IMG/VR virus record: IMGVR_UViG_3300042477_000507
Coordinates: 1 to 58,851 of that record
DNA from: a virus
Length of the DNA: 58,851 nucleotides
Strand: one strand, 5' to 3'
Part shown: piece after piece, positions 11,970 to 26,982 of the stretch
How positions within the stretch are numbered: position 1 is the first letter of the stretch
How the letters are laid out: each line of letters begins with the position of its first letter
Position numbers and translations under genes: made by a program
Notes under the pieces: generated by a model
The model's database searches: none
Told to the model about the DNA's origin: nothing
What the model saw: the letters and a program-made list of their open reading frames with translations, nothing else

Positions 11970-11978
11970 TGCAGTGAC

Positions 11979-12695: not shown

Positions 12696-12769
12696 GTGTT
12701 AATACTTTGCAAGTAGTGAGCTGGAATGCGTTTTTAAAAAAAAATTGAGCTGGAATAGGGAAAAAAAAT

Positions 12770-12850
12770 TCGCTGCGGGGGATAAAGTAAGCCCCCCTGG
12801 CAGGAGAGGCTACCCCCGGTGGGGGCCAGCTGGTGAGGCTGACCCTACCG
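12770..12850 (-). terminator. GC-rich stem-loops ending the island gene
   Basis: Downstream of the 203-residue gene, minus strand, is the stem CCCCC-ACC-GGGGG inside a longer GC-rich fold. Further downstream comes a run of eight T (12763-12770). It may act as the terminator that insulates the GC-rich island. Confidence 0.45.
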
Positions 12851-12860
12851 GCTGCCGGGC

Positions 12861-13472: not shown

Positions 13473-13495
13473 CGGTCTGTGATCTGTGGTTGTGT

Positions 13496-13541
13496 GTCAG
13501 GTCTTGCCTGACTTGTTCACAAGTTACAGGAGATCCGGTGA
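13496..13541 (-). promoter_or_regulatory. Possible promoter and leader hairpin
   Basis: Minus strand: TTGCAA, 17-base spacer, TAACTT, then a leader with the perfect inverted repeat GTCAGG-CAAGA-CCTGAC before the ATG of the GC-rich gene. The promoter match is moderate. Confidence 0.4.
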
Positions 13542-13554
13542 CTTTGCAAGCCTT

Positions 13555-14690: not shown

Positions 14691-14702
14691 GAAAATCCCC
14701 AC

Positions 14703-14796
14703 TGTGGCTAGTGGAAAATTCTACCACAATCTAATGAGTCTCGAAATAAGAAACCTAGTCAGGGACTGAATTTCTCATTTCAAGAACCTGAGACTC
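14703..14796 (-). promoter_or_regulatory. Dyads in the control region of the RepL-like gene
   Basis: TGTGG and CCACA (14703-14707, 14724-14728) flank a possible minus-strand -10 TAGAAT (with TTTCGA 17 bases upstream). Further up, GAGTCTC plus GAAATAAGAAA pairs with TTTCTCATTTC plus GAGACTC (14736-14796). Symmetry over a promoter suggests an operator, perhaps for autoregulation; this is inferred. Confidence 0.45.
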
Positions 14797-14830
14797 AAAA
14801 AATGAGACCCCTTGCGGCGCAAAGGATCTC
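14797..14830 (-). terminator. Intrinsic terminator after the small terminase-like gene
   Basis: Minus strand: GAGATCCTTT, loop GCGCCGC, AAGGGGTCTC, then ATTTTTTG. It lies about 95 bases beyond the stop of the gene upstream. Confidence 0.65.
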
Positions 14831-14924
14831 AGGGGCGTGTCAATTTTCTCCTATAGGGTATGGGAGACGGTTCAGCAGCTAATCCAGGACAGGCGCAAAA
14901 CAAATCATCGGCGAACAAATAAAT

Positions 14925-15560
14925 TCATTCATCAAAATCAGCTTCTTCCAAAGCAACTAAAAGCTGCTCAACACCTAAAGCGCCTGATTGTAAATTCTTG
15001 CCCACTTCAGCAATTTTTGCGGCGCTGTTAAGTATCGACGGAATATCACGAATATCTATGCTGCGATCATTTTCTAAATACTCGTCTAATGTACGCTGAG
15101 ATAATGCAGCTAATTTGGCTGCGTTCGCAGATAAATTTCGCCCAAGAAATTCTTGCTGTAATCTATAAGCTTCTAAACGCTTTTTATGTTCAATCGCTCG
15201 TGAATCTTGCTCTACACGTAACTTTTGCTGCAACATATCTATGTCATAATCACTTGCACGTTCTGCCCAATAATTCTTTTTGCTAATTGCTAGCACTTTG
15301 TTATCTTGTAAATTAAATGTATTTGCAATATATGTTGTAGATCTTCCCGATCCACAGCTCAAATAAAACTTAAAAATTTCAAACTCTTTTTCTGTTTCAG
15401 AAGTTGCCCCTCCTCCATTTTTCATATAACTTTTATTTACTAAGACGCGAGAATTTAAAATTGCATCTGCGTCATTAAACGCGAACTGTTCACGTTCGTG
15501 ATTAGCGTTTAGAGACTCATCGCTTTCATTGAAAGTATCGGCGTCAAATAAATCAGACAT
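14925..15560 (-). CDS. Terminase small subunit-like protein
   Basis: From ATG 15560 (MSDLFDADTFNESDESL) 211 residues. A helix-turn-helix-like part with STTYIANTFNLQDNKVLAIS and KKNYWAERASDYD matches the DNA-binding region of phage small terminases. It is followed by a long helical oligomerisation segment (RTLDEYLENDRSIDIRDIPS, LNSAAKIAEVGKNLQSG). The upstream in-frame ATG 15605 has a better ribosome site (GGAG nine bases before) but adds a hydrophobic stretch. It would bind the packaging site and load TerL. Confidence 0.65.
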   Translation of the reverse strand: MSDLFDADTFNESDESLNANHEREQFAFNDADAILNSRVLVNKSYMKNGGGATSETEKEFEIFKFYLSCGSGRSTTYIANTFNLQDNKVLAISKKNYWAERASDYDIDMLQQKLRVEQDSRAIEHKKRLEAYRLQQEFLGRNLSANAAKLAALSQRTLDEYLENDRSIDIRDIPSILNSAAKIAEVGKNLQSGALGVEQLLVALEEADFDE

Positions 15561-15785
15561 GAACAGTAAAATATCCAGGCGACTAAAGAATAGCATGAAA
15601 CCCATAATCAAACACTCCCCATAAAAGGGTCGTGTTTGCACGCTCGCAGGCTCGCTCACACACAAATAAAAAGCAAGAAGAAAGAAATAGCGCGGGCGCG
15701 ACTAATAAATTCCTATCTGGGGCGCAACATTGCAAATCGTGCGTAGCACAAATAAATAAACTGCGCATAACTATTAGCAGACAAT

Positions 15786-15816
15786 AAAAAACCCCTGCTG
15801 CGATTAACAGCAAGGG
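15786..15816 (-). terminator. Intrinsic terminator
   Basis: Minus strand: CCCTTGCTG, loop TTAATCG, CAGCAGGGG (one mismatch), TTTTTTATTG, just after the signal-peptide protein gene. The rest of the 240-base gap before the small terminase gene shows no gene that I can support. Confidence 0.75.
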
Positions 15817-15846
15817 CGAGTCGTAATAAATTACTTTATCTATAAA

Positions 15847-16032
15847 CTAACGAATACATCTATCTGTACTCGCATGATCTAATTTTGCAGTTACTAAACA
15901 AGCTCTGTATTCTAAATCTCTATTTATTTGCGATGTTGTAAAATCAACTGTTGATGCAGCAATTAAAGGGGCGCCAATAACAACTGCTGTGCAAGCACAA
16001 ATCTTTGCAAATGCAGAAATAATGTTGTTCAT
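15847..16032 (-). CDS. Small secreted or membrane-anchored protein
   Basis: A 61-residue protein with a hydrophobic N-terminus (ISAFAKICACTAVVIGAPLI) that fits a signal peptide or membrane anchor, possibly with cleavage after AAS. The C-terminal 30 residues are soluble and contain two Cys (YRACLVTAKLDHASTDRC). It is not recognised. It is the last gene before a terminator. Confidence 0.65.
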   Translation of the reverse strand: MNNIISAFAKICACTAVVIGAPLIAASTVDFTTSQINRDLEYRACLVTAKLDHASTDRCIR

Positions 16033-16467: not shown

Positions 16468-16531
16468 AACAACAAAGCACTTCTCTCTTTGTTGTTACAG
16501 CTATTATAACACGTATCACATTACATGTCAA
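16468..16531 (-). promoter_or_regulatory. Early promoter with +1 hairpin (copy 1)
   Basis: Minus strand: TTGACA (16526-16531), 17-base spacer, TATAAT (16503-16508). The predicted start falls at the base of a 10-bp perfect stem AACAACAAAG/CTTTGTTGTT (16468-16496). It is followed by a U-rich leader to ATG 16436. Confidence 0.85.
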
Positions 16532-16550
16532 GCATCAATCAATGCGAATT

Positions 16551-17036
16551 TCAAAATAAATCATTGTACGCAACTAATTTATCATAGTAAAATCTATTCT
16601 TTGCATCTTTATAAAAGAGTCTCGGCGCGTGATGTAAGCTCCCCAAGCAAATAATAACTTTCATCATCATCTGCTTTTTTCTGTCTAGCAAACAAAACGA
16701 CGTAACACAAAACAGTCTTCTCAACGCATCTAAATACTCATCAACGTATTCATGCAAGTTATAAATCCTGAACATACTTTTATCAACAAACATTTCACGA
16801 TTATCTTTCACGCATTGTCGAATTAACTCTTCAGATAAATCAACTGTATTTACAAAGTTGTATTCATTCAAGCAATCATAGTCTTGTAAAGAAATGCACG
16901 GGAGCGATAAATGATCATCAGGGGCGAGAAATAAAAGTCTCTGTGTTTTGTATCTTTGCAAATAACGTTTTGCTTCGCTGAGTCTTCTTTTGACTTCAGC
17001 AGACGTGAAATGATCTGTTGCAGAAATCTTTGCCAT
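16551..17036 (-). CDS. Hypothetical protein
   Basis: A 161-residue mixed-charge protein with a TSAEVKRRLSEAKRYLQRYK helix near the start and a Cys/Phe-rich middle (LRRLFCVTSFCLLDRKKQ). The helix resembles TASQVKKRLHLCREAL in the protein at 26983-27543, so the two may share an N-terminal module. Function unknown. Confidence 0.65.
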   Translation of the reverse strand: MAKISATDHFTSAEVKRRLSEAKRYLQRYKTQRLLFLAPDDHLSLPCISLQDYDCLNEYNFVNTVDLSEELIRQCVKDNREMFVDKSMFRIYNLHEYVDEYLDALRRLFCVTSFCLLDRKKQMMMKVIICLGSLHHAPRLFYKDAKNRFYYDKLVAYNDLF

Positions 17037-17112
17037 CTCAGAAATCTACATCGCTCAGAAATCGCCCCGAGAAGCCCAGGGAATCGGGCGCTGGCATGAA
17101 TCCCTCCTGAAG

Positions 17113-17152
17113 CAAATAAAAAGCCCCTTCTGGGCGATTCCAGAGGGGGCTC
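17113..17152 (-). terminator. Intrinsic terminator
   Basis: Minus strand: AGCCCC-CT-CTGG, loop AATCGC, CCAG-AA-GGGGCT, then TTTTATTTGC. It ends the unit 17191-18290. Confidence 0.85.
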
Positions 17153-17190
17153 ACGAATCTCTTGGGCGCAGAGATCAATCCCCGCTGTCA

Positions 17191-17385
17191 TCAATCGACG
17201 ATTTCACTGACAGAAATCACCTCCTTCGCTGAAAAATGTTTTGTAAAACGATTAAGTGCATCTTGTTTTGTTTTGCACTCAGAAATAACTGTCCACCCAA
17301 TAAATCCTCTAGCTTTTGTATCTTCAAATAAAATACGAAACTTTCTGTATTTAATCGTTTCGTAGCTGCGCATCAAACTTTGCAT
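17191..17385 (-). CDS. Hypothetical protein
   Basis: A 64-residue basic protein with the pattern KYRKFRILFEDTKARGFIGW, TVISECKTKQDALNRF. It overlaps the upstream gene by 13 bases. It may be a small beta-alpha-beta fold; not recognised. Confidence 0.6.
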   Translation of the reverse strand: MQSLMRSYETIKYRKFRILFEDTKARGFIGWTVISECKTKQDALNRFTKHFSAKEVISVSEIVD

Positions 17386-17567
17386 GAGTGTGCAGTAACT
17401 GTAACATGCGTGATGTTTCCCTCAATAGAAAGCAATGCGTCATCAATAGATTTAATGACTGCATTATTTTCTTTGTAGACTTGAGGGTATTTAATTTGCA
17501 TACGAATTAACTCTGCACGATAATCAACAAGCGCAGTACGAATTGTTGTCGAAGAAAGAATTGACAT
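17373..17567 (-). CDS. Hypothetical helical protein
   Basis: From ATG 17567, 64 residues (MSILSSTTIRTALVDYRAEL). Mostly helical, with a VTVTAHSC tail. It sits between overlapping neighbours, suggesting one operon. Function unknown. Confidence 0.6.
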   Translation of the reverse strand: MSILSSTTIRTALVDYRAELIRMQIKYPQVYKENNAVIKSIDDALLSIEGNITHVTVTAHSCKV

Positions 17568-17569
17568 AA

Positions 17570-17878
17570 TCAAGCAAATGATTTTTCTAGTGAAAATTGA
17601 ACAAGTTGCGTGCGATCATCTTTGTACGCTCGCACTAAATCAAGTATTCCGTCAACTTGATCTTCAGGGACATTAAAATCCTTGCACACTAATTTCACAA
17701 GCGAAACAAAATGCTCGTCTTTGTTAAATAAGATTTCTCTGTTTTCGTCAATTTGCACGAACAAATCAATCGCTTTCCGAGTAATCTGCATTTGCGGATT
17801 TTCAGTAAAACCAAGCGTAGATAATCTTTCAAGTGCCCCATAAACCCAAAGAACTTGACATGTTTTCTTGTCAATCAT
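17570..17878 (-). CDS. Hypothetical helical protein
   Basis: A 102-residue all-helical protein (VLWVYGALERLSTLGF, QITRKAIDLFVQIDE, VPEDQVDGILDLVRAYKDD). No motif is recognised. It is the middle gene of a compact early operon. Confidence 0.65.
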   Translation of the reverse strand: MIDKKTCQVLWVYGALERLSTLGFTENPQMQITRKAIDLFVQIDENREILFNKDEHFVSLVKLVCKDFNVPEDQVDGILDLVRAYKDDRTQLVQFSLEKSFA

Positions 17879-17909
17879 AATGAATTAGCGAAGTGATTAA
17901 AAAGCAAAT

Positions 17910-18290
17910 TCAGTCTTCTACACGTTCTGAAACGGGTAGACGGGAAAGGTTCCCGTGTTTTTTAATCGAATAAAAAATATATTCGCAGAACTCTTGTGCG
18001 TATTCTGCACGGCAGAAATCATTTCCTGTCATGTATTGAACTTCTGTTTCGTATTCCTGTTCGCCGCCGATGCTTCTAACTTCTCTGATCCACAAATAAA
18101 TCTCCCACATCGGACAGCAAACTCCGAAGAAATCTTCGTGATCACTTGTGTATTCACGAACCGAGAAAGAAATAAATTGCTTTTCTCCGTCTTCATCAAA
18201 TGTGCAAATTTCTTCCGAATCAATCCTGCCGCCGTGAAAACCTCGTGAGAAATCTTCCCACACAATTTGCTGCTGTTCTGTAATTTGCAT
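17910..18290 (-). CDS. Acidic hypothetical protein
   Basis: A 126-residue, Glu/Asp-rich protein with many aromatic residues (WEDFSRGFHGG, MWEIYLWIREVRSIG, EYETEVQYMTGNDF). Its acidity could suit a DNA-mimic or inhibitor role, but no family is recognised. Confidence 0.65.
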   Translation of the reverse strand: MQITEQQQIVWEDFSRGFHGGRIDSEEICTFDEDGEKQFISFSVREYTSDHEDFFGVCCPMWEIYLWIREVRSIGGEQEYETEVQYMTGNDFCRAEYAQEFCEYIFYSIKKHGNLSRLPVSERVED

Positions 18291-18325
18291 TTCCTTGAAA
18301 AATGGGGGGCGAGTGAATTAAAAAA

Positions 18326-18580
18326 TCAGGTGTGCGAAGATCCGTCAGGAGAAATACATCCGTACATTTTGCAGTTAGGAAGAATCCCAAACAAGAAAAC
18401 TTCTTTGCTTTGATCGTTAATCTGTTCGCACATAAACTTTGCGTCTTTGAGCATGTCTTTAACTTTAACGTCAAGAATCAATGCCCAAGTCAGCAATTTA
18501 GATTTCTGCGCTTCAGTTAATAACTGAAACACGTCATAATCAATCTCGTCAGAAACAAAAAGAGGGGCGCGGAAATTCAT
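18326..18580 (-). CDS. Hypothetical protein under an early promoter
   Basis: An 84-residue protein from ATG 18580 (MNFRAPLFVSDEIDYDVF), helical, with a C-terminal Cys pair (NCKMYGC). It is the first gene after promoter copy 2. The leader lacks a clear Shine-Dalgarno but has CAGACAATC before ATG. Confidence 0.6.
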   Translation of the reverse strand: MNFRAPLFVSDEIDYDVFQLLTEAQKSKLLTWALILDVKVKDMLKDAKFMCEQINDQSKEVFLFGILPNCKMYGCISPDGSSHT

Positions 18581-18603
18581 GATTGTCTGTGAAAAAGAAA
18601 TAA

Positions 18604-18675
18604 ATGCGAGAGGAAGAAAAGTACTTCCTCCCCCTCGCATGTTGCTATTATAGCATGTCACACGTTACGCGTCAA
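18604..18675 (-). promoter_or_regulatory. Early promoter with +1 hairpin (copy 2)
   Basis: Minus strand: TTGACG (18670-18675), 17-base spacer, TATAAT (18647-18652). A strong hairpin, ATGCGAG to CTCGCAT (18604-18640), has an inner GAGGAAG/CTTCCTC stem. The -35 lies inside the 3' end of the preceding gene. Confidence 0.85.
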
Positions 18676-18957
18676 GCATTTATCTGTTGAATCTTTGAAT
18701 TTATTTTCTCGCTTCAGCAATTCAACACTCGCAAGCTTTGCAATTACAAATAACTTAGCTTGCGTAAAAACAAACTGCTTTCTGTACTTGTTTTTGAGAT
18801 AACATAAAATGTTTCCCGTAACAGAATCCCACTGCTTAATAGTTACATCCATAAATTGATCGTGATCTTTTGATTTGCAAATGTGTTTGTAAGTTGTGGA
18901 TGTTTTGACAATACGAATCACCTCGTCGTCAACAAATTTGCTCAAGCTGTCAGTCAT
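18658..18957 (-). CDS. Hypothetical protein
   Basis: A 99-residue basic protein with FVDDEVIRIVKTSTTYKHIC and a hydrophobic FTQAKLFVIAKLASVELL helix. Its stop region carries promoter copy 2 for the next gene. It overlaps the upstream gene by ATGA. Function unknown. Confidence 0.65.
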   Translation of the reverse strand: MTDSLSKFVDDEVIRIVKTSTTYKHICKSKDHDQFMDVTIKQWDSVTGNILCYLKNKYRKQFVFTQAKLFVIAKLASVELLKRENKFKDSTDKCLTRNV

Positions 18958-19154
18958 TTTTTCAAGCAGATGTATTTACCGCCAACAAGTGCGTCATTCA
19001 TAAAAATAAGACGTTCGGCGGGGCAGTGATGAAAAGCATGATTACTCAGCTTTTCGTTAATGAATCTAGCACAAACAAAACCAATCGCTGTGCCCGCAGT
19101 GATAGCAAGTACTGCGTGAAGAAACTCTTTGTGTTCAGAAAAGAAGTCTTTCAT
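18954..19154 (-). CDS. Small protein with one membrane segment
   Basis: A 66-residue protein with a probable transmembrane helix at residues about 12-30 (FLHAVLAITAGTAIGFVCAR), followed by a soluble part with NDALVGGKYICLKK. A phage membrane protein of unknown role, perhaps in host membrane modification. Confidence 0.65.
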   Translation of the reverse strand: MKDFFSEHKEFLHAVLAITAGTAIGFVCARFINEKLSNHAFHHCPAERLIFMNDALVGGKYICLKK

Positions 19155-19157
19155 GAT

Positions 19158-19445
19158 TCAATCAATGTGTTTGATGTAAAATCCTGCAGATTCCCAGGAA
19201 ATAACTGAGTCAAAGGGATTGAAATCAGTCTTGATGCTTGCAAAATAATCCCCATCCATTCCATGAATTAAAGGGAGATCTACTTCTGCTTCACCGCTGA
19301 AATAATCTTTAACCCAGTGAATCACTTGAGTTTCTAAATCAAGAATGTCATCATCTTTGATTTCTTTGAAAAACTTTTGGCCTGACTTGCAATCATAAAT
19401 GTACAGATAACATTCAAATGGCGCAGGTGTACAAAGATTTGTCAT
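19158..19445 (-). CDS. Hypothetical acidic protein
   Basis: A 95-residue acidic protein starting MTNLCTPAPFECYLYIYDCK, with a DSVISWESAGFYIKHID tail. Not recognised. Part of the unit 18658-20298. Confidence 0.65.
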   Translation of the reverse strand: MTNLCTPAPFECYLYIYDCKSGQKFFKEIKDDDILDLETQVIHWVKDYFSGEAEVDLPLIHGMDGDYFASIKTDFNPFDSVISWESAGFYIKHID

Positions 19446-19465
19446 GATGAAATTAAATGAGTTAG

Positions 19466-19840
19466 TTAAATGTAACCAGCGTCTTGAATACCCGGCTCGT
19501 CATAAAACCAAGTAATTGACGCATCTTCGTACATTTCACGAAGTTTTTCACAAATACCGCAAGGCGGTGCCCATGCAGTCATAAACATCATTTGCAAATA
19601 CTCATCTTCATCTTCAACAAAAGAAACATCCGCTGCTTCAATGTCCCACTTTGTTCCCCAATGATTTACGCGCCATGAATACCATCCGGGTGTAAAATCA
19701 TTGTCCTGTGGCAATTCCTCTTCTGAGGGCTGAGGAAGAATCTTACTGAACGGATTATCTTGAGAAAATAACTCTTTGATCTCTTTGATCTGATCTGCTT
19801 CCGCAGTAATCGAAACGCGATTTTCGCACCAGTTAGGCAT
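19466..19840 (-). CDS. DUF1281/Api92-like ferredoxin-fold protein
   Basis: A 124-residue protein from ATG 19840 beginning MPNWCENRVSITAEADQIKE. It continues with KILPQPSEEELPQ, GWYSWRVNHWGTKWDIEAA, FMTAWAPPCGICEKLREMYE and FYDEPGIQDAGYI. This matches the family with a YubB/Api92-like ferredoxin-fold domain that is spread through phages and plasmids. Function is unknown. Confidence 0.85.
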   Translation of the reverse strand: MPNWCENRVSITAEADQIKEIKELFSQDNPFSKILPQPSEEELPQDNDFTPGWYSWRVNHWGTKWDIEAADVSFVEDEDEYLQMMFMTAWAPPCGICEKLREMYEDASITWFYDEPGIQDAGYI

Positions 19841-19869
19841 GATAAAACTCCGTGTTGAATTGAATAAAA

Positions 19870-20298
19870 TCAGAGACAGCAAACATAATCAATAACTTCT
19901 TGCGGCAATTCTTCTTTCAACCACTTGCTTCCGTATTTGTATCCGTCATCAACTAACGCATCAAAGCGTTGCAAGTAATTGCAGGCGTCATCGTAATCAT
20001 TTAGCTCAACTCCAGAAGCTTTTGCCTGACGCAAGATTTCTTCTTGCACAAATGTTCCAGCACGCATGTCATTTAAGTGCCAACGCTTCCAGATTTCGTA
20101 GAGTCGTGCGGGAATAATTTCCTTGACCTGATCTTGAATCTGTCCCCAGCCGAGTAAATTCTTTTCTGATTTGAGAAGTTTTTTACCCGTGAAGCAAGTA
20201 CCGACAATACTCAAAGACTTGAAAGAATTTTTGTCTTTGATCTCAATCTTGAGCGTGCAAGAGAAATTTTCTCCTGCAAAAAAGACAGTTTTTAGCAT
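19870..20298 (-). CDS. Conserved phage/plasmid protein with WHLNDM motif
   Basis: A 142-residue protein. The part IWKRWHLNDMRAGTFVQEEI and YKYGSKWLKEELPQEVIDYV is a pattern shared by uncharacterised phage and plasmid proteins. The N-terminal 55 residues form a separate, basic beta-rich part. It is first in its unit after promoter copy 3. Function unknown. Confidence 0.7.
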   Translation of the reverse strand: MLKTVFFAGENFSCTLKIEIKDKNSFKSLSIVGTCFTGKKLLKSEKNLLGWGQIQDQVKEIIPARLYEIWKRWHLNDMRAGTFVQEEILRQAKASGVELNDYDDACNYLQRFDALVDDGYKYGSKWLKEELPQEVIDYVCCL

Positions 20299-20323
20299 GA
20301 AATTTTCTGATTGAAAAAAACAA

Positions 20324-20395
20324 ATACAAGCGAAAAAGAATTACTCTCTCTCGCTTGTATGCCTACATTATAGCACGTAACAGCTTACGTGTCAA
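20324..20395 (-). promoter_or_regulatory. Early promoter with +1 hairpin (copy 3)
   Basis: Minus strand: TTGACA (20390-20395), 17-base spacer, TATAAT (20367-20372), then a perfect 10-bp stem ATACAAGCGA/TCGCTTGTAT (20324-20360). The leader ends CAGAAAATTTC just before ATG 20298. Confidence 0.88.
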
Positions 20396-20399
20396 GCAT

Positions 20400-20906
20400 T
20401 TATTTTTCGTCTTTCTGAAAGTAACCATCCCACCAAGTCTTTGATTCTTCTATCTGTGCAAGCATTTTGTCGCAAAATTTTTCAGCTTCACGCTCTGTTT
20501 CGTATCTAAATGGATCGTGATCAAATTCATCAACACCATGATAATTAACAAGTGTCAAATAGGCACTCGCGCACTTAACAACATCTTGTGACGTAAGTAA
20601 ATTTATAAACTCCTGAAGATCCCAGTTTGCAAAATTAGCAGCAGTCTCAAGTTCATCGCTAAACCATTCTTTGTATCTGGGATGAAATCTATTTGTCCCG
20701 ACGCCCAGGAATTCTCCCGAGTCGTCAAGAATTTTATGACAGCGCTCTAGTGCAACTTCACTGCGCTTTCTAAAATCTTCATCATAAATCAGAAGAATGG
20801 GGTCGTAAATTGCTCGACGATCAATGCAAACAAATGCGCCCCCGTAAGTAAAGGGATCGGCGTCACCAAGATTTGCGATGCAGAAATAACTAGGCTGTGC
20901 AGTCAT
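20400..20906 (-). CDS. Hypothetical protein (YFCIANLGD)
   Basis: A 168-residue protein starting MTAQPSYFCIANLGDADPFT, with GGAFVCIDRRAIYDPILLIY and a central AANFANWDLQEFINLL helix. I recall the N-terminal pattern from uncharacterised proteins, but no function is known. It ends where promoter copy 3 begins. Confidence 0.65.
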   Translation of the reverse strand: MTAQPSYFCIANLGDADPFTYGGAFVCIDRRAIYDPILLIYDEDFRKRSEVALERCHKILDDSGEFLGVGTNRFHPRYKEWFSDELETAANFANWDLQEFINLLTSQDVVKCASAYLTLVNYHGVDEFDHDPFRYETEREAEKFCDKMLAQIEESKTWWDGYFQKDEK

Positions 20907-20908
20907 GA

Positions 20909-21172
20909 TTAAATTTGCTGTGTTGGATAATTGAACTTTGTGCCCGTAGAAAGTTTTGTAACCTCAAGATCAGACTTGGGTAAACAAATCATCGCTTGCT
21001 CAAGAACAGTGTTCGCAAAACTTTCTGCAACATTTTCCGAGTCGATAACTTTCCCGTCTTGCGTTCTTTTCTCAAGGAGAAAATAATCATCAATGCGACG
21101 AAAATGAACAATGACAAGTTGTTCGTTGCGACGATCAAATAACTTGAACTCTTGAACTTGTTGAATCTTCAT
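20909..21172 (-). CDS. Hypothetical protein
   Basis: An 87-residue protein, beta-rich at the start (FKLFDRRNEQLVIVHFRRID) with a helix ESFANTVLEQAMICLP. Not recognised. Two bases separate it from the next gene, so both form one unit. Confidence 0.6.
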   Translation of the reverse strand: MKIQQVQEFKLFDRRNEQLVIVHFRRIDDYFLLEKRTQDGKVIDSENVAESFANTVLEQAMICLPKSDLEVTKLSTGTKFNYPTQQI

Positions 21173-21213
21173 GAATCATTCCTCATCGAAAGAAAAGCCT
21201 TCGAGTGCTTCAA

Positions 21214-21504
21214 TCACGATTCATCCTCGAACGAAAATCCCTCCGGGATCTCCCACAAATCGCCGTCTTGATGCAAGCCCCACTTCACGCCGTCAGAAAT
21301 CCATTCGGCGTTCTGACAAATAATGTCCCAAGATTCCCAGTACCATTCATGATCTGGGCCTTCTTGACAAATTTTTACGTCTTCAAAATCAATCTGCATC
21401 TCCTCAGCAATCTTTTCATCAATGTGATTGCAGTAAATCTGCGGAATGTAAATACCGTTCCTGTCGGAAATAACAAGAATCGGATCAAGAGTTTTGTTTG
21501 ACAT
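21214..21504 (-). CDS. Conserved acidic phage protein (IYIPQ/QDGDLW)
   Basis: A 96-residue acidic protein from ATG 21504 (MSNKTLDPILVISDRNGIYI). The pattern ISDRNGIYIPQ, a middle WYWESWDIICQNAEW and KWGLHQDGDLWEIPEGFSF occurs in uncharacterised phage and plasmid proteins. It is the first gene after promoter copy 4. A short degenerate copy of its last codons follows the stop. Confidence 0.75.
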   Translation of the reverse strand: MSNKTLDPILVISDRNGIYIPQIYCNHIDEKIAEEMQIDFEDVKICQEGPDHEWYWESWDIICQNAEWISDGVKWGLHQDGDLWEIPEGFSFEDES

Positions 21505-21531
21505 GAAATTTTCTGAGAATGAAAGAAACAA

Positions 21532-21600
21532 ATGCGACAAAAGAATAATTAGTTCTCTCGTCGCATGTGTGTATTATAGCACGTTACATGCAACGTGTCA
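21532..21600 (-). promoter_or_regulatory. Early promoter with +1 hairpin (copy 4)
   Basis: Minus strand: TTGACA (21595-21600), 17-base spacer, TATAAT (21572-21577), hairpin ATGCGAC/GTCGCAT (21532-21565) with inner pairing GAGAA/TTCTT. The leader ends CAGAAAATTTC before ATG 21504, identical to copy 3. Confidence 0.88.
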
Positions 21601-21605
21601 AGCAT

Positions 21606-21803
21606 TTATTTTTCGTCTTTTGCAAAGAAATCAATTCCATTCAAGGTTGTATTGTCCCGATGCGTCAGCCCAATACAATAATCATTATCCAAGCATTTAA
21701 TCAAATACTGTCCAATAGAATCTTTGATTACGATGTATGATTCAGAATCGCAATAAACTGTCCTCCCTGAATCAACTAAGTCGCGGATTTGTTGAGCGTT
21801 CAC
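21606..21803 (-). CDS. Conserved small protein (SYIVIKDSIGQYLIKC)
   Basis: A 65-residue protein with VYCDSESYIVIKDSIGQYLI and CIGLTHRDNTTLNGIDFF. This beta-rich pattern is common among small proteins of phages and plasmids. Function unknown. Confidence 0.75.
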   Translation of the reverse strand: MNAQQIRDLVDSGRTVYCDSESYIVIKDSIGQYLIKCLDNDYCIGLTHRDNTTLNGIDFFAKDEK

Positions 21804-21813
21804 AATTAAAAAA

Positions 21814-21999
21814 TCAGAATGGATTACCCCAGGAATTTACTTGACGATCATTAATCTCACCGTCTCGATGTAATTGATCTATAAATTGCACAAATGCTTG
21901 GCGCTTTGCACAAATGTCGTCAACAGAGTTAGGGGACTGAAATTTAATAAAGCAATTCCACTCGTCTTTGAAAATAGCAATCGCTTCTTGTTTTGTCAT
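21814..21999 (-). CDS. Conserved small protein (DRQVNSWGNPF)
   Basis: A 61-residue helical protein from ATG 21999 (MTKQEAIAIFKDEWNCFIKF). The C-terminus LHRDGEINDRQVNSWGNPF matches a widespread phage pattern (LHRDGxITDRQVNSWxNPF). Function unknown. It is the first gene after promoter copy 5. Confidence 0.75.
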   Translation of the reverse strand: MTKQEAIAIFKDEWNCFIKFQSPNSVDDICAKRQAFVQFIDQLHRDGEINDRQVNSWGNPF

Positions 22000-22022
22000 G
22001 TTTTTGAGAAAGAAATGAAACA

Positions 22023-22093
22023 AAAATGCGAGAGAAAAATTAGTTCTTCGTCTCGCATTTTGCTATTATAGCACGTGTGACATTACGTGTCAA
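22023..22093 (-). promoter_or_regulatory. Early promoter with +1 hairpin (copy 5)
   Basis: Minus strand: TTGACA (22088-22093), 17-base spacer, TATAAT (22065-22070). A perfect 11-bp stem AAAATGCGAGA/TCTCGCATTTT (22023-22061) follows at once. Confidence 0.88.
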
Positions 22094-22097
22094 GCAT

Positions 22098-22358
22098 TTA
22101 TCTAGCCACGTTTTTAGTAAATATCTTGCTATCGCAAATATCACACTTTAAATATCTATCATTCTTATTCACGCAGTCTGCTTTAATAATCCAGGGCGCA
22201 AGTGTTGCAAATCGCTCTCTAAAAATATGACAACAATGACTACAAGCAACAAAATTACCCTGCGTTAAAACATATCTTGCTCTCGCATGTTTCTTTTGTG
22301 TTAAATACTGCGACGCAAGAATGTCTGCAGTGCGCAATGAAAAACTCTTTGAACTCAT
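22098..22358 (-). CDS. Small zinc-finger-like protein
   Basis: An 86-residue protein from ATG 22358 (MSSKSFSLRTADILASQYL) with two CxxC pairs, CSHCC near residue 40 and CDIC near residue 74, as in a treble-clef or ribbon zinc site. The basic N-terminal half (QKKHARARYVLTQG) could touch nucleic acid. Function unknown. Confidence 0.65.
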   Translation of the reverse strand: MSSKSFSLRTADILASQYLTQKKHARARYVLTQGNFVACSHCCHIFRERFATLAPWIIKADCVNKNDRYLKCDICDSKIFTKNVAR

Positions 22359-22416
22359 CAAAATATGCAATAAGTGAATAATCGCTCAGCTCGCTCAGAA
22401 TCCTCTGTGAGCCGCA

Positions 22417-22455
22417 GAAATCCCCTCAGCGTGGGATGAATCGACTGAGGGGAAA
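22417..22455 (-). terminator. Intrinsic terminator
   Basis: Minus strand: TCCCCTCAG, a 15-base loop, CTGAGGGGA, then TTTC. The stem is a perfect 9 bp but the U-tract is short. It ends the unit 22487-23979. Confidence 0.6.
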
Positions 22456-22486
22456 CAACCCTACTGCGGGCGCAGGAATCAAGGTC

Positions 22487-22702
22487 TCAGGCGGAAATAA
22501 GGCGCTCGAACTGCTCAAGAACCTTCTGCTTTGATCCAGTCAGTCCGTATTCTTTTTTGATAATTGAACAAGCACTTGCCCCACGAGAAATCTTCATTCC
22601 CTTAACTTCAAGCATCAATGCACGCAACAAAGCACGCTTGCGAAATTCTTGAATGCTGTCGCCTGTAACGACAAAACCACCGTCAAAAGTTTCAACTGTC
22701 AT
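22487..22702 (-). CDS. Conserved small protein (LEVKGMKISRG)
   Basis: A 71-residue helical basic protein: IQEFRKRALLRALMLEVKGM, then SACSIIKKEYGLTGSKQKVL. This pattern recurs in uncharacterised phage and cyanobacterial proteins. Function unknown. Confidence 0.7.
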   Translation of the reverse strand: MTVETFDGGFVVTGDSIQEFRKRALLRALMLEVKGMKISRGASACSIIKKEYGLTGSKQKVLEQFERLISA

Positions 22703-22718
22703 GATAAAGCGTCAATGA

Positions 22719-22898
22719 TTAAAGTGTTTTCTTGATGCGGGCGTGCAAATCTTTGTAGATCACTTTAGCTTCTTTCCACGCACGTTGATTTTCTTCTTTA
22801 TCGCCATCTTTCACAAGAGGGACAAAGTTTTCACCATAATTGTGCATGAAAGAGATTGCGCTAAGTAATGCTAGTTTTTCTTTCTTACTTAGACTCAT
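22719..22898 (-). CDS. Hypothetical small protein
   Basis: A 59-residue frame, ATG 22898 to TAA 22719: MSLSKKEKLALLSAISFMHN, then YGENFVPLVKDGDKEENQRA and WKEAKVIYKDLHARIKKTL. It overlaps the upstream gene by 14 bases, so it is probably translated in the same unit. Not recognised. Confidence 0.65.
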   Translation of the reverse strand: MSLSKKEKLALLSAISFMHNYGENFVPLVKDGDKEENQRAWKEAKVIYKDLHARIKKTL

Positions 22899-23208
22899 TT
22901 CTCAACTGCTCAATCAACATTTCACATTCTTTAGTTTTTTGTTGAGATACAGTCTCACAAACAATAAGAAGCTCCTCGACTGTTAGATACTTTAAAAAGT
23001 TTGATTGCATGTCAGCAAATGGGGTGGCATTTCCATAATCTTCCTCCTGCAAGCACATGCGAAATAAATGAATCGCTGCCATCAAAAACTCTGATTCAAA
23101 TAAATAGGAATACAACAATTCCTCTGGGCTGAGCTTTGACGCATCTCGCTCACTGTTTTTCCATGAACAGTAATTGTCAAGCAGTTGTTCAAATGTAATT
23201 ACGTTCAT
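22885..23208 (-). CDS. Hypothetical helical protein
   Basis: A 107-residue acidic all-helical protein (FEQLLDNYCSWKNSERDASK, ESEFLMAAIHLFRMCLQEED). No motif is recognised. It overlaps its neighbours at both ends. Confidence 0.65.
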   Translation of the reverse strand: MNVITFEQLLDNYCSWKNSERDASKLSPEELLYSYLFESEFLMAAIHLFRMCLQEEDYGNATPFADMQSNFLKYLTVEELLIVCETVSQQKTKECEMLIEQLRNESK

Positions 23209-23771
23209 TATCTTTTCAGCTCCTGCTTTTGCCTAAAGGCTGAATCGCAAATCTCTCGCATTGTGACAGGAGCCTCTCCGCCGGAGTTGTCGTAAAGATA
23301 CTGCGGAGTTGGATCAATAGTTCCAAACTCAACAGAAAATTCTCTGCCCTCGTTAATCATGTATTCGGCGAGTGCAAATAATTCTTCTGAGTCAGTATCT
23401 TCATCTACCGCGCTGATTTCTCCTGTATTCGTTTTTTCTTTTAACACCCAGTGAACGTCATGTGTTTCACTGAAATTAACTTGAAAGTAAACAGGCACAG
23501 AAACATCAGATCGCGGAACAATCTGCGTCGCATCAATAAAGATTTCACAGTCATCAGGGGAGTCACCCCCATGAATTTGTGCAATCATTTGCAGCACATC
23601 TTTCATGCTGCCCTCGCCGTACTCCTGAGAAACATTTTTGTTGAAGATTTTTTGATCTTTGTCGTAACGAACTTTAGTACGCTGAACAATCCAAGTGGCG
23701 GTGTTTGACATTTCTTGATCGAAATAATCTGGAGGATCGAGCGGGCGTGGGTCGTAAATAAAATCAGACAT
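23208..23771 (-). CDS. Hypothetical acidic protein
   Basis: From ATG 23771 (MSDFIYDPRPLDPPDYFDQE) 187 residues, strongly acidic. A middle beta-rich part (VPVYFQVNFSETHDVHWVLK) is followed by an acidic VDEDTDSEELFALAEYM. Not recognised. The start lies inside the preceding gene's end (eight bases of overlap). Confidence 0.65.
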   Translation of the reverse strand: MSDFIYDPRPLDPPDYFDQEMSNTATWIVQRTKVRYDKDQKIFNKNVSQEYGEGSMKDVLQMIAQIHGGDSPDDCEIFIDATQIVPRSDVSVPVYFQVNFSETHDVHWVLKEKTNTGEISAVDEDTDSEELFALAEYMINEGREFSVEFGTIDPTPQYLYDNSGGEAPVTMREICDSAFRQKQELKR

Positions 23772-23979
23772 TCTGAATTTCAGCAAGGCGAGCCTGTGCA
23801 AATCGAGAGCCGGGACCGTACTGTTCAAACAATTCGGGCCAAGCGTTCAGAATCTTTGCTTTGTTTGTAAGGTCTGCGGCGCAGTAGGCATCTGCAAGCT
23901 TTTTGCAAAAATGCCCACCGTAATGACGCATGGTTTCTGCAAACACATAATGGTCATCTGGAGTCATAGCCTTTTGCAT
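23764..23979 (-). CDS. Hypothetical helical protein (ETMRHYGGHF)
   Basis: A 71-residue helical protein with FAETMRHYGGHFCKKLADAY, AADLTNKAKILNAWPELFEQ. The pattern of a repeated helical pair is seen in uncharacterised phage proteins. It is the first gene after promoter copy 6. Confidence 0.65.
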   Translation of the reverse strand: MQKAMTPDDHYVFAETMRHYGGHFCKKLADAYCAADLTNKAKILNAWPELFEQYGPGSRFAQARLAEIQNV

Positions 23980-23998
23980 TTTCTGTAAAATAAAAAGA

Positions 23999-24061
23999 AG
24001 AGGCGGGCTTGCAAGCTTTGCCCGACCCCTCTATTGTACAAGCAATTGGCGCTGCTGTCAA
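23999..24061 (-). promoter_or_regulatory. Early promoter with +1 hairpin (copy 6)
   Basis: Minus strand: TTGACA (24056-24061), 17-base spacer, TACAAT (24033-24038), then a hairpin (GAGG..CGGGC/GCCCG..CCTC, 23999-24031) and TTCTTTTTATTTTACAGAA up to ATG 23979. Confidence 0.82.
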
Positions 24062-24065
24062 GCAT

Positions 24066-24359
24066 TTATTTGTCGTCGTCTAATTTGTAATTCATCAGCC
24101 CTGTCTCAAGAGACTGACGCAGGTTGCGAATCGCTTTCTCGATTGAAGAAAGCCCTCTCAAGACTGCGAACAAAAAATCAGGGCTAACTCTGTCATCTCG
24201 ATCAATTAACTTTTCAATTGTCGTAAATTTATTTGAGCAGTTTTGACACACGCATCTTCTTCTAACTTCATTTGATTGAGGGCGGGATTCAATAACTTTT
24301 CTTTCTGTGCTTTTACAAGTTGGGCACTGGACGCCCATTTTTAAGCTTCTGTATCTCAT
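24066..24359 (-). CDS. NrdR-type zinc-ribbon protein lacking the ATP cone
   Basis: From ATG 24359 97 residues; ATG 24338 (MGVQCPTCKS) is an alternative closer to the NrdR start. The ribbon is VQCPTCKSTERKVIESRPQS, VRRRCVCQNCSNKFTTIE: two CxxC pairs, the SRP element and FTTIE as in the NrdR zinc ribbon. The ATP-cone domain of NrdR is absent; a short helical tail with GLSSIEKAIRNLRQSLETG replaces it. NrdR represses ribonucleotide reductase genes; whether this protein does so is unknown. Confidence 0.75.
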   Translation of the reverse strand: MRYRSLKMGVQCPTCKSTERKVIESRPQSNEVRRRCVCQNCSNKFTTIEKLIDRDDRVSPDFLFAVLRGLSSIEKAIRNLRQSLETGLMNYKLDDDK

Positions 24360-24360
24360 T

Positions 24361-25257
24361 CTAAATAAATTCTTTTTCTTCATCAATTTTTGAAAGAAGT
24401 GAGGCAATTCTATCTCCTGCAAGAATTTGTTTAATTGCATCCTCTGAAGCAAGATTCATATTTTTTATTTTTTGATACAACTTATAGTATTCAACTCCAT
24501 GCTGTTCGGCAAGAACCGAAATCGAAATCTTCCTCCCATTGAATGTTACGAAAATAGAATTTGATCTTCTCCTGCAATTTTCTTTTCTTGTAGCCCAAAG
24601 CGCAAGACCTGGGGCGTAAATTTTATTACCAGCAAGAACCGCCTCTTTGTCCAATTGATGATCTTTTGAGGGTCTTGGTCCCAGGTCTTTGTAAAAGTTT
24701 GCAAACGAACCGCCATTTGCGGGATTCCAGCGATCACAAACAGAAACACCGCGCCCGCCATAAAGTTCATATGATGTGTGATCTTTGTTGTAGCATCTTT
24801 GAATCATGTTATACCAAATTCTGTATTCATCCGTCTTGGACATGCGGTGGGTTTCCTTTTCCGCGTTTGAGCATTTTCTGCATTTTTGATACCTTGAGCT
24901 AAAAAGCCTGTCAGAAGTCATTAATGACTCCGCTCCGCAATCACAAACGACCAAAAACTGTCTTTTGTAATGATTACTGCTAGATCCGCGCCTTTCCTTA
25001 ATCACGGTCCAGCTTTTAATTTTTTGTCCAATTGCGACAGTATTTTTTGTAAAGCGCAAGCCTAGGCACTTCTGGCATGAACCAGCTTCGCCGGAGGTTA
25101 AATAATAAAGGTCTATTTTTTTTCTAAATTTACATCTGCATTCAACTGGTACAACGTAAGTTCTTTTTCCACTAGGATATATTTTTAGCTCTGGACTCCC
25201 TAAAACAGTCCAGCCGCCGTAAACACTCCCAATGGGAGGCGGTAATCTTTTGGGCAT
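24361..25257 (-). CDS. Homing endonuclease-like protein
   Basis: A 298-residue protein. It starts with GSVYGGWTVL and a Cys-containing ribbon (CRCKFRKKI), with a second copy (IKSWTVIKERRG, VVCDCGAESLMTSDRLF, CRKC). The nuclease-type module follows: EYRIWYNMIQRCYN, YELYGGRGVSVCDRW, FYKDLGPRPS, HQLDKE. The C-terminal IFVTFNGRKISISVLAEQHG part resembles a NUMOD1-like DNA-binding region. It ends one base before the NrdR-like start. It is likely an invader gene in the early region. Confidence 0.82.
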   Translation of the reverse strand: MPKRLPPPIGSVYGGWTVLGSPELKIYPSGKRTYVVPVECRCKFRKKIDLYYLTSGEAGSCQKCLGLRFTKNTVAIGQKIKSWTVIKERRGSSSNHYKRQFLVVCDCGAESLMTSDRLFSSRYQKCRKCSNAEKETHRMSKTDEYRIWYNMIQRCYNKDHTSYELYGGRGVSVCDRWNPANGGSFANFYKDLGPRPSKDHQLDKEAVLAGNKIYAPGLALWATRKENCRRRSNSIFVTFNGRKISISVLAEQHGVEYYKLYQKIKNMNLASEDAIKQILAGDRIASLLSKIDEEKEFI

Positions 25258-25338
25258 CGTTCAAATCGGAGTTGGACGGTCAAGAGCCAGGAGCTGCAAC
25301 TCGCTGGCTCACCTAATTAAAGCAGGCAGGCGAGAAGG

Positions 25339-25743
25339 TTAGGCGAAATAAATTTTTCCATCATCACCTAAATACGCTTCTACCTCTGGCTGGCTTTGCG
25401 CAGCTTCTTTCAGAATTAAAGCAACCCGAGGATTCCATGAATTTTTATCAAAACCATCGCCACATCTGTTCCTGGTAAGTATGTAATCATATTCAGTTTG
25501 ATTTGGTGCCGGTTGTGCTAAATCATAAAAGTCATCAATGCAATCCCATTTGTCGCCTATTGCTGCAGTGATTTTTCCTTCTACTATTGAAATAAAACTT
25601 TGGTAATCAGTGTAAAGCTTTTTCAGTGATTCCTCTTCAAAATCCGTGATTGAATAGTTTTTATCAAGAGGCTCGTCACGATCGTCGCACTCGGTGTACA
25701 AAACAGTTTCAGCGAGCGCAATAAGAGTTGGATTCATTTTCAT
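25339..25743 (-). CDS. Conserved phage/plasmid protein (TRNRCGDGF)
   Basis: A 134-residue protein. FYDLAQPAPNQTEYDYILTR followed by NRCGDGFDKNSW and a C-terminal VEAYLGDDGKIYFA matches the common pattern DYxLTRNxxGxGF...YxGDDGKIY of uncharacterised phage and plasmid proteins. Function unknown. Confidence 0.75.
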   Translation of the reverse strand: MKMNPTLIALAETVLYTECDDRDEPLDKNYSITDFEEESLKKLYTDYQSFISIVEGKITAAIGDKWDCIDDFYDLAQPAPNQTEYDYILTRNRCGDGFDKNSWNPRVALILKEAAQSQPEVEAYLGDDGKIYFA

Positions 25744-25752
25744 GATTGACTC

Positions 25753-26061
25753 TCAGTAAAGATTACCGAGTTTGAATTCATTGAGCGCAGATTGAGCAAA
25801 TCTAAAGGCGATAATAGAAATAATTTCGTTTTTGTGCGTAAAAAACAGATCTTTCTGAGTGGAATACTTGCTCCAGAAAAAAGCAAAAAACTTTGAAACA
25901 AACTGCGATGTCTCGAATAAAGCTGAGTCGTAGTAATCAGATTGTTCAACGTTTTGATAAATCCAACTCAGCGATTTCATCAATGCGTTGTATGAAATAC
26001 CATCGTGATTCTCAAGAAACAATGTGAAGTTGCCAACTTCTTGCTTAAATGATGTCTGCAT
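25753..26061 (-). CDS. Hypothetical aromatic-rich protein
   Basis: From ATG 26061 102 residues, rich in Phe and Tyr (FVSKFFAFFWSKYSTQKDLF). Not recognised. It is the first gene after promoter copy 7, and its leader reads CAGAGATTTC before ATG. Confidence 0.6.
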   Translation of the reverse strand: MQTSFKQEVGNFTLFLENHDGISYNALMKSLSWIYQNVEQSDYYDSALFETSQFVSKFFAFFWSKYSTQKDLFFTHKNEIISIIAFRFAQSALNEFKLGNLY

Positions 26062-26078
26062 GAAATCTCTGAAGTAAT

Positions 26079-26140
26079 AAAAAAGACCGCCCTGCGTTGA
26101 GCGGTCTTTGCATTGTAGCGCGTTGCTCACTACTTGTCAA
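26079..26140 (-). promoter_or_regulatory. Early promoter with terminator-like +1 hairpin (copy 7)
   Basis: Minus strand: TTGACA (26135-26140), 17-base spacer, TACAAT (26112-26117). Its first transcribed bases form AAGACCGC/GCGGTCTT followed by TTTTTT (26079-26109), which is a perfect intrinsic terminator by shape. Confidence 0.85.
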
Positions 26141-26448
26141 GCATTTATTTGTTCAGCTTTTTCGCAAATCTGCTTGTATGTGATAGCTCGCATGTCGTCG
26201 TCAAATCCTTCTGCTTCAAGAATTTTCTCGCGCAGTTCAGAAAGAAGCTCAACATGCTTCATGATTACATCAGCCTTGAAAGCAAGCGCTGAGTAAATCT
26301 CTCGACTAACCCACGGCGCAAAAAATGCAGCAACCTGCGCTCTTCTTTTTTCTTTTTTCAGTGTTTCAACGCAATGCTCCATTTGCATAAACAAACCCTG
26401 CATTAAAGCATTGAGTTCGTGCAGATAAAGTTCGGACTGTAGTTTCAT
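26137..26448 (-). CDS. Hypothetical helical protein
   Basis: A 103-residue all-helical protein (YLHELNALMQGLFMQMEHCV, IMKHVELLSELREKILEAEG). Not recognised. Its stop overlaps the -35 element of promoter copy 7. Confidence 0.65.
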   Translation of the reverse strand: MKLQSELYLHELNALMQGLFMQMEHCVETLKKEKRRAQVAAFFAPWVSREIYSALAFKADVIMKHVELLSELREKILEAEGFDDDMRAITYKQICEKAEQINA

Positions 26449-26450
26449 AA

Positions 26451-26909
26451 TCAGTTCAGGAATTGATTAGCTTTTCCGCTGAATACCAAATCCAGCACGC
26501 CACCAAAAGTAGCAGGAGTGACATTGTAATCATACTTCCCAAAACCCTTAGTAATGAAATAAAACTTTGACGTAGCTCGCGCAATCTTGCTTTGCATTTC
26601 GCCGAGACGATCATTTTTTAGAAAGCGCATCATGTGAACTTCGGCGACAGAAAGCTCGTACTCTGATTCTTCTTGTCTGTACTTTTCATAAAGCTTGCAA
26701 TACAGGGGAAGAAAGTTGCTACCCATCTCTGAAATAATCCAGAGACGGGTATCACCTGGGCGCATCTTGTTAATTATCTTTTTATCATGAACAGCAACAT
26801 CTGTCCAGTTGTGTTTTACAACGCTGTCCGCTTCATAACACATCCATTCATGCAATGTTAAATTACGCAGATTGCGCTTAACGCTTTCTTGTCTTGAAAT
26901 AATTTGCAT
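26451..26909 (-). CDS. Hypothetical protein
   Basis: A 152-residue mixed protein (QESVKRNLRNLTLHEWMCYE, YKLYEKYRQ-like helix, ATFGGVLDLVFSGKANQFLN). Not recognised. It is the first gene downstream of the promoter at 26934-26962. Confidence 0.65.
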   Translation of the reverse strand: MQIISRQESVKRNLRNLTLHEWMCYEADSVVKHNWTDVAVHDKKIINKMRPGDTRLWIISEMGSNFLPLYCKLYEKYRQEESEYELSVAEVHMMRFLKNDRLGEMQSKIARATSKFYFITKGFGKYDYNVTPATFGGVLDLVFSGKANQFLN

Positions 26910-26933
26910 GAGCTGTTGTGATTGAACTTACGG

Positions 26934-26962
26934 AGTATAGCGCATTGCAAGTAGCATGTCAA
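26934..26962 (-). promoter_or_regulatory. Early promoter without hairpin (copy 8)
   Basis: Minus strand: TTGACA (26957-26962), 17-base spacer, TATACT (26934-26939), with the same upstream ATAAATGCT-like flank as the other copies (AGATAAATGC). No stem-loop follows; the leader is about 18 bases. Confidence 0.8.
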
Positions 26963-26982
26963 GCATTTATCTTGCATGTAGC

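Follow-up and report, generated by a model that had tools for sequence, protein, structure and literature searches.

Repeated early promoters with a conserved hairpin at the predicted transcription start in a virus probably infecting freshwater cyanobacteria

RESULTS

Promoters of the leftward early region

We analyzed a 58,851-nucleotide stretch of DNA, IMG/VR virus record IMGVR_UViG_3300042477_000507, referred to here as the window. A whole-window scan located eight minus-strand promoters between 16503 and 26970, each matching TTGACA-N17-TATAAT with 0–1 mismatches. This agrees with the initial annotation, which had placed eight sigma70-type promoters with 17-nt spacers at these sites. Its -35 coordinates are also correct apart from its copy 4 (promoter 5 below), where the -35 ends at 21596 and not 21595. 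The first leftward early promoter, promoter 1 (26934–26970), reads TTGACA-17-TATACT with the flank ATAAATGC, has its predicted +1 at 26927, and is the only one of the set without a hairpin. No early promoter was found upstream of it. Promoters 2 (26112–26148) and 3 (24033–24069) both read TTGACA-17-TACAAT, and promoter 7 (18647–18683) reads TTGACG-17-TATAAT. Promoters 4 (22065–22101), 5 (21573–21609), 6 (20367–20403), and 8 (16503–16539) match the consensus perfectly; promoter 4 is a chimera, described below, and promoter 8 has the flank ATTGATGC. The sole further promoter in the window with at most one mismatch lies at 40009 on the plus strand and has a 16-nt spacer. Furthermore, ATAAATGCTTGACA occurs in six exact copies in the window, every time on the minus strand. 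When up to three mismatches are allowed it gives 19 matches against 8.9 expected, a number reached in 0 of 100 shuffles. We took the seventh base past the -10 (offset 6) as the predicted +1, and each of the 93 promoter matches has a purine (A or G) at this base. For promoters 1 to 8 it falls at 26927, 26105, 24026, 22058, 21566, 20360, 18640, and 16496 on the minus strand.

The 17-nt spacer is itself conserved and partly palindromic, a feature absent from the initial annotation. The dyad is ACGTTGCATGTAACGT in promoter 5 and CACGTAA-GCTG-TTACGTG in promoter 6. Treated as a strict dyad, the spacer shows only weak covariation over and above the palindromic consensus (z 2.75). This conserved pseudo-palindrome is a likelier protein site than the RNA hairpin. 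The cassettes had also been proposed to respond to a phage protein; nothing in our analysis points to such a response at the RNA level.

Hairpins at the predicted transcription start

Seven of the eight promoters are followed by a hairpin whose foot lies at the predicted +1, with folding energies of -12 to -24 kcal/mol, and none was found at the remaining copy (26962), both as annotated. The stems are longer than the 7–11 bp given previously, measuring about 10–17 bp with G-U pairs counted. Hairpin 2 (26082–26109, minus strand, as are all the others) has 11 bp followed by TTTATT and is the most terminator-like of the window's set, with a d score of 22. Hairpins 3 (23998–24031) and 4 (22023–22061) belong to promoters 3 and 4. 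Hairpin 5 (21532–21566) has a core of 14 bp, hairpins 6 (20324–20360) and 7 (18604–18640, -23.9 kcal/mol) each have 17 bp, and hairpin 8 (16468–16496) has 10 bp with arms AACAACAAAG/CTTTGTTGTT. An Rfam search for a known RNA family returned none, with one sub-threshold chance match outside the cassettes.

Among 73 distinct hairpin leaders from the window and its relatives, +1 falls within the 5' arm of the stem in 56, and the probability that +3 is paired exceeds 0.5 in 70. With +1 taken as the seventh base after the -10, at most two 5' nucleotides are unpaired in 68 of the 73 leaders and at most four in all 73.

Conservation and covariation in related viruses

The same cassettes are present in 12 further IMG/VR records. 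A broad pattern scan of viral contigs returned mainly unrelated promoters along with one useful relative (L051), and a scan with an ATGCGA-stem pattern recovered a second lineage, its many unrelated coding matches being discarded. A search of deposited phages for close DNA relatives gave no match, and the same cassettes were not found in the cyanophage isolates S-CBS3 and KBS-S-2A. The terminase large subunit (TerL) and portal proteins are nearest to those of small cyanophages of 38–41 kb, at 26–37% identity, and the record here is 58.9 kb. From these distant homologs, the host is probably a freshwater cyanobacterium. A host search through the sigma factor in genome contigs yielded no relative.

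Covariation in related phages had been proposed as a check on the stems, and compensatory changes were found. In alignment A3 (17 bp), 96% of cells are paired and seven pairs are altered on both sides. The number of double-change cells is 17 against 7.6 in shuffled alignments, and no shuffle out of 500 reached it. All type-1 hairpins were also aligned with MAFFT (A1), but this alignment was out of structural register and was excluded from the counts. Hairpin 2 shows a single compensatory change in a relative, from C-G to U-A. The cassettes are paralogous, and several have discriminator and loop sequence in common. Cassettes with unrelated stem sequence keep an identical hairpin position. The promoter 3 cassette precedes the same gene as in the relatives, yet its spacer and hairpin are unlike theirs. 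In the window and in every relative where it was recovered, the first leftward promoter has no hairpin. The promoter and its start-site hairpin are a real, conserved building block in which the promoter stays the same while the hairpin varies in sequence and keeps its shape. The relatives thus strongly support the repeated promoter-hairpin module of the initial annotation; the S1-type leader without a Shine-Dalgarno sequence, which had been counted as part of it, does not belong to it.

Leaders and translation starts

The annotated CAGAAAATTTC ahead of ATG is indeed common to copies 3 and 4 (20395 and 21601). A Shine-Dalgarno sequence is absent from the cassettes, as had been noted, but this is true of the genome as a whole: SD-like starts make up 10% in the early region, 12% elsewhere, and 8% at random sites. 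The SD-less leader is therefore no property of the cassette. We also considered leaderless translation from an AUG at +1, as 29 of 71 transcripts would begin with AUG. As a general function it was rejected because copy 21601, read from +1 as ATG CGA CGA GAG AAC TAA, runs into a stop after five codons, and because AUG is absent from that position in other cassettes.

Terminator-like features

The U-rich tail has at least four T residues in an 8-nt window in 69 of 71 hairpins, and 60 of 71 also have an MFE below -10. This test is close to a published criterion for cyanobacterial intrinsic ends (at least four U in 8 nt and MFE < -10; PMC13289151). The d'Aubenton-Carafa score is passed by 32 of 71 hairpins, a count that hinges on the choice of stem end, since 6 of 72 pass without sliding and 32 of 71 with it. 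By the cyanobacterial criterion most of the phage hairpins resemble intrinsic terminators in having a stem and U-run; by the d score fewer than half do. They differ in that they sit at the transcription start, their stems are long and of purine/pyrimidine character, and more than half remain under the d'Aubenton-Carafa threshold. In the 12.5-kb early region the four highest-ranking terminator-like sites are all start-site hairpins, and on its minus strand each of the three sites with d > 0 is a start-site hairpin. Evident phage terminators elsewhere have stems that are short and rich in GC, in some cases closed by a UUCG loop. The stop codon of the preceding gene lies inside the promoter or up to about 36 nt ahead of it, so there is little room for another terminator.

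Exchange and loss of units

Promoter 4, at 22093, is chimeric. Its upstream flank is that of the relatives' promoter D, its downstream leader is that of the neighboring promoter E, and the unit lying between D and E in the relatives is missing in the window. The promoter appears from this sequence to serve as a recombination joint as well, a role that the initial annotation did not mention. This is the single clear case of a promoter chimera accompanied by loss of a unit; other exchanges, among them those in the mosaic relative G005, were joined within units. Genes are thus gained and lost inside units too, and promoters are not the sole joints.

DISCUSSION

The closest likeness we found, one absent from the initial annotation, is to the promoter early stem-loops (PeSLs) of T4-like phages such as RB49, which PMC4503421 describes as joints for gene-block shuffling. 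Both combine a near-consensus host early promoter, in many copies, with a stem-loop among small, uncharacterized ORFs. By our own measurement, 32 of 41 strong stems in RB49 have their center upstream of +1, usually between the -35 and the -10 or spanning the -10, and six are at +1. In the phage group described here, unlike RB49, 62 of 74 strong stems are at +1 and are therefore transcribed from their own promoter. A stem-loop inside or overlapping the promoter, as in RB49, is not the arrangement here; some copies have a weaker spacer dyad. The phage type also differs from T4-like myoviruses, no sequence relation was shown, and there is no SD here. By analogy, the cassette may work in a way similar in idea to PeSLs.

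A second likeness is to the 5'-terminal stabilizing stem-loops of Escherichia coli ompA and papA and of bla fusions, in which the stem stands at the very 5' end, leaves few nucleotides unpaired, and is followed by a single-stranded leader (PMC3997798). The phage hairpins likewise have no more than about 2–4 unpaired 5' nucleotides. They differ as a repeated family with variable stems on one promoter type in a phage, and are predicted stabilizers. The T7 gene 10 leader also puts a stem-loop right at the +1 of its promoter, at the start of a phage mRNA, but it is made from a phage RNA polymerase promoter, serves late genes, and has a single conserved sequence.

We lean towards a composite module that joins a host-type early promoter to a start-site hairpin, which would cap the new mRNA and leakily end the previous one. 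Each cassette would stand at the head of a small unit of early genes, most of them unknown. During infection, its near-consensus host sigma-70-type promoter, with an extended -10 and the conserved, partly palindromic spacer, would start RNA at the seventh base after the -10. Since this base sits at the hairpin foot, the new mRNA would begin double-stranded. Such a hairpin would guard the transcript against 5'-end-dependent decay (RNase E 5' sensing and RNase J), and cyanobacteria have both RNase E and RNase J. It probably doubles as a leaky intrinsic terminator of the upstream unit, because a U-rich run follows it and it is the first hairpin past the previous gene's stop codon. The hairpin-free first leftward promoter, with no early promoter found ahead of it, fits this reading. 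Homologous recombination between the repeated promoter sequences would delete or exchange units. Both 5' protection and insulation from readthrough, as initially annotated, are compatible with the anatomy of the cassette. A hairpin at the 5' end hinders conversion by RppH (PMC3997798); close RppH homologs are missing from cyanobacteria (PMC10989914), and the classical route through RppH may therefore not operate there. One point against the composite module is that a terminator at +1 should cut its own promoter's transcription as well. The d score, passed by fewer than half of the hairpins, and the different, GC-rich terminators elsewhere in the phage also weigh against it.

The hairpin could instead protect its own mRNA only, on the ompA/papA principle, with the U-rich stretch an ordinary unstructured leader. 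The tight pinning of the foot to +1, which an upstream terminator would not need, speaks for this, as do the T-richness that persists over the measured 12 nt with no sharp drop after the stem and the failure of more than half of the hairpins to pass the d score. However, such a stabilizer does not predict a hairpin-free first promoter, and most hairpins fit the cyanobacterial intrinsic-terminator criterion, so we regard it as rather unlikely. We think it unlikely to a slightly greater degree that the hairpin mainly ends transcription, punctuating the units and restraining its own promoter until readthrough or an antitermination factor intervenes. The exemption of the first promoter, the ranking of the start-site hairpins in the early region, and the lack of Rho in cyanobacteria would all suit this role. 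Yet punctuation does not call for so strict a placement at +1, which would also weaken the genome's strongest promoters. Moreover, classical GC-rich terminators are used elsewhere in the phage, and no antiterminator was identified.

Two further explanations carry little weight with us. The loop might be the target of an RNA-binding protein, from phage or host, by which the early units are coordinated, as [GC]UA[ACG]U occurs in 25 of 73 apical regions against 4.6 in shuffles. This is very improbable: the loops are unrelated in cassettes 2 and 3 as well as in several more, common descent of paralogous cassettes accounts for the shared loop, and there is no candidate protein. That common descent, with its shared discriminator and loop sequence, could also mean that the hairpins are ancestral repeat copies that fold by chance and have no RNA function. 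We find this scarcely credible, as pairing is kept despite stem sequence change far beyond shuffles and unrelated stems hold the same position.

More tentatively, and as a possibility that we would not yet favor, one short promoter-fused DNA segment encoding a hairpin may serve unit n as its 3' terminator and, at the same time, unit n+1 as its 5' end-cap, swappable as a whole, with partial termination at its own +1 hairpin setting output. If this dual role is true, a single swappable element punctuates and protects the whole chain of early units. The cassettes extend the idea of a mobile promoter plus stem-loop from T4-like enteric phages to probable freshwater cyanophages that form an unrelated group and have the stem inside the transcript instead. 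For hosts that have RNase E and RNase J and no Rho, the +1 hairpin makes a testable prediction of how early mRNAs are kept separate and alive. The natural stem variants, about 70 in number and all carried by the same promoter scaffold, also form a ready library for the effects of 5' hairpins on decay and termination.

Promoters and start-site hairpins of the early region

The early region carries eight minus-strand sigma70 promoters at 16503–26970, each with a 17-nt spacer and at most one mismatch. Elsewhere in the window, a single further promoter has one mismatch or fewer, a plus-strand site at 40009 whose spacer is 16 nt. All eight sites of the initial annotation were found, with one coordinate shifted by a single base (21596, not 21595). 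The candidate +1, the seventh base after the -10 element, is A or G in 93/93 promoter matches (57 A and 36 G, including a few weak matches outside cassettes), as expected of a +1. The spacer consensus, [AC]GTAA..TG.TACGTGC, is far more conserved than polymerase would require and is partly palindromic, with 45% pairing at symmetry i+j=15 versus 39% for recombined halves (z 2.75). It is plausible that the spacer is read by a dimeric DNA-binding regulator; no such regulator was identified.

A start-site hairpin (-12 to -24 kcal/mol) follows seven of the eight promoters and is missing from the first leftward one, at 26962. The stems measure about 10–17 bp, longer than the 7–11 bp proposed originally. 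We folded 73 distinct hairpin leaders from the predicted +1, three of which are probably not true cassettes, without altering the picture. Positions +3 to +7 have mean pairing probabilities of at least 0.92, +3 is paired in 70/73 leaders, and the median shuffle z-score is -3.9. The 5′ arm takes in +1 itself in 56 of the 73, and 68 leave two or fewer 5′ bases unpaired. An AUG at +1 opens 29 of 71 predicted RNAs from the window and its relatives, usually hidden in the stem.

Conservation, covariation, and recombination

Searches with the helicase and terminase, together with the promoter and hairpin patterns, recovered the same cassettes in 12 other records belonging to two lineages. These records are not fully independent, as several have a helicase >95% identical to that of the window, and near-identical stretches occur in both G015 and G016 (two of the genome records). 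The most distant lineage 1 member with many cassettes is contig L180 (G001), with a terminase 88% identical. The upstream flank is ATAAATGC in lineage 1 and mostly GATTAGTAC in lineage 2.

The promoter-hairpin feature is real, conserved, and selected for structure. In a 17-bp alignment of eight leaders with stems in one register, 96% of cells are paired, 7/17 pairs have changed in both arms, and double-change cells number 17 versus a shuffled mean of 7.6; the covariation score was equalled by 0/500 shuffles. Orthologues of hairpin 2 add one compensatory change, C-G to U-A. Pairing fell from 95% with own arms to 53% with arms exchanged between hairpins, a comparison biased by picking the own stem as best. 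Hairpin position is kept despite unrelated stem sequence, as in the window's 24061 cassette and its relatives. Here the downstream gene is the same as in relatives and the spacer and hairpin are unrelated to theirs, so promoter and hairpin can be exchanged as one piece.

Gene maps show that the unit of gene families F36 and F35, found between F12 and F13 in relatives, is missing from the window. The window promoter at that point, 22093 (22065–22101), is a chimera: upstream it resembles promoter D of the relatives (85–89% over 110 nt) and downstream their promoter E (79–91% over 91 nt), with non-matching flanks at about 60–65%. The simplest reading of these matches is that a crossover inside the promoter repeat removed the F36-F35 unit. 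Genome record G005 (contig L183, 6623–9429) has a mosaic early region, with several genes and promoter flanks from lineage 2 (L269–L273). Its F36, F35, F37, F39, and F15 are 84–99% identical to lineage 2 and at most 66% to lineage 1; F12, F8, and F1, among other neighbors, lie nearest lineage 1. Some joints are at promoters and others inside units.

Virus and likely host

The window, an IMG/VR virus record of 58,851 bases, likely belongs to a virus with a cyanobacterial host, because Synechococcus and Prochlorococcus phages figure among its best protein matches. These phages are nearest for the terminase and portal (26–37% identity), and Synechococcus phages are prominent among the best matches of the sigma factor (S-CBS3, 44%; S-CBS1, 42%) and thymidylate synthase (S-TIP37, 61%). 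The sigma factor, encoded at 45579–46565, perhaps serves later genes. At the DNA level, the early region had no matches to deposited phages. Across the window, Shine-Dalgarno sequences are nearly absent from genes, and gene starts tend to have C at -1 preceded by T or A at -2. An AT-rich array with a 17-bp period (13580–14186; unit near AATAAATAATTGCAATT) adjoins an HTH replication-initiation-like ORF at 14208–14702 and could represent iterons or an origin.

Terminator, 5′ cap, or both

The hairpin could act at the 5′ end of its own transcript, as a terminator of the preceding one, or as both. Its pinning to +1 favors a 5′ role. In E. coli, mRNA is stabilized by a 5′ hairpin, which also impedes 5′-end conversion by RppH (PMC3997798); RNase E and RNase J are both present in cyanobacteria, which lack a close RppH homologue (PMC10989914). 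A marine cyanophage increases host RNase E during infection, and antisense RNA is believed to shield the phage's own transcripts (PMC9692554). By analogy, we infer that the phage 5′ hairpins would meet a similar need.

Punctuation is favored by the hairpin-free first promoter and by lack of room. Neither the window nor any relative in which the first leftward promoter was found has a hairpin at that promoter, and no sigma-70-like promoter with three or fewer mismatches was found just upstream on the minus strand (27.2–28.7 kb). Hairpins thus set off every promoter but the first, in the manner of a separator. For most units, the stop codon of the preceding gene falls within the promoter or no more than about 36 nt upstream of it and is frequently the TAA of ATAAATGC or the TGA of TTGACA, which makes the start-site hairpin the first structure after that gene. 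At least four T in an 8-nt window follow 69/71 hairpins, and 60/71 also have an MFE below -10, close to the intrinsic-end criterion used in S. elongatus (PMC13289151); Rho is absent from cyanobacteria (PMC13289151). Only 32/71 pass the d'Aubenton-Carafa score, T-richness falls only mildly across the 12 nt measured past the stem, and terminators elsewhere in the phage have short GC-rich stems. UUCG loops cap some of the compact, GC-rich terminators that lie beyond the early block on the minus strand at 1271–15861 (e.g., AGCCCCGCTTCGGCGGGGCTTTT). Because pinning to +1 points to a 5′ role and the exempt first promoter and little room point to punctuation, we prefer a double role, in which the hairpin would serve the 5′ end and leaky termination.

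Comparison with other promoter stem-loops

The promoter early stem-loops (PeSLs) of T4-like phages such as RB49, whose role is described in PMC4503421, share a design principle with these cassettes and differ in stem position. Among 41 strong stems near early-like promoters in RB49, 32 are centered upstream of +1 and usually fall in the spacer (e.g., GGGGATCGGTGATCCCC) or across the -10 element. Stems lie at +1 in 6/41 cases in RB49 versus 62/74 in the window and its relatives. The cassettes are best filed among promoter-plus-stem-loop cassettes as a new variant, with a putative effect on RNA. At 491 strong promoters from a promoter-pattern scan of unrelated viral contigs (L001–L120), strong stems preferentially begin 0–15 nt past the -10 element, and start-site hairpins may therefore be common in phages generally.
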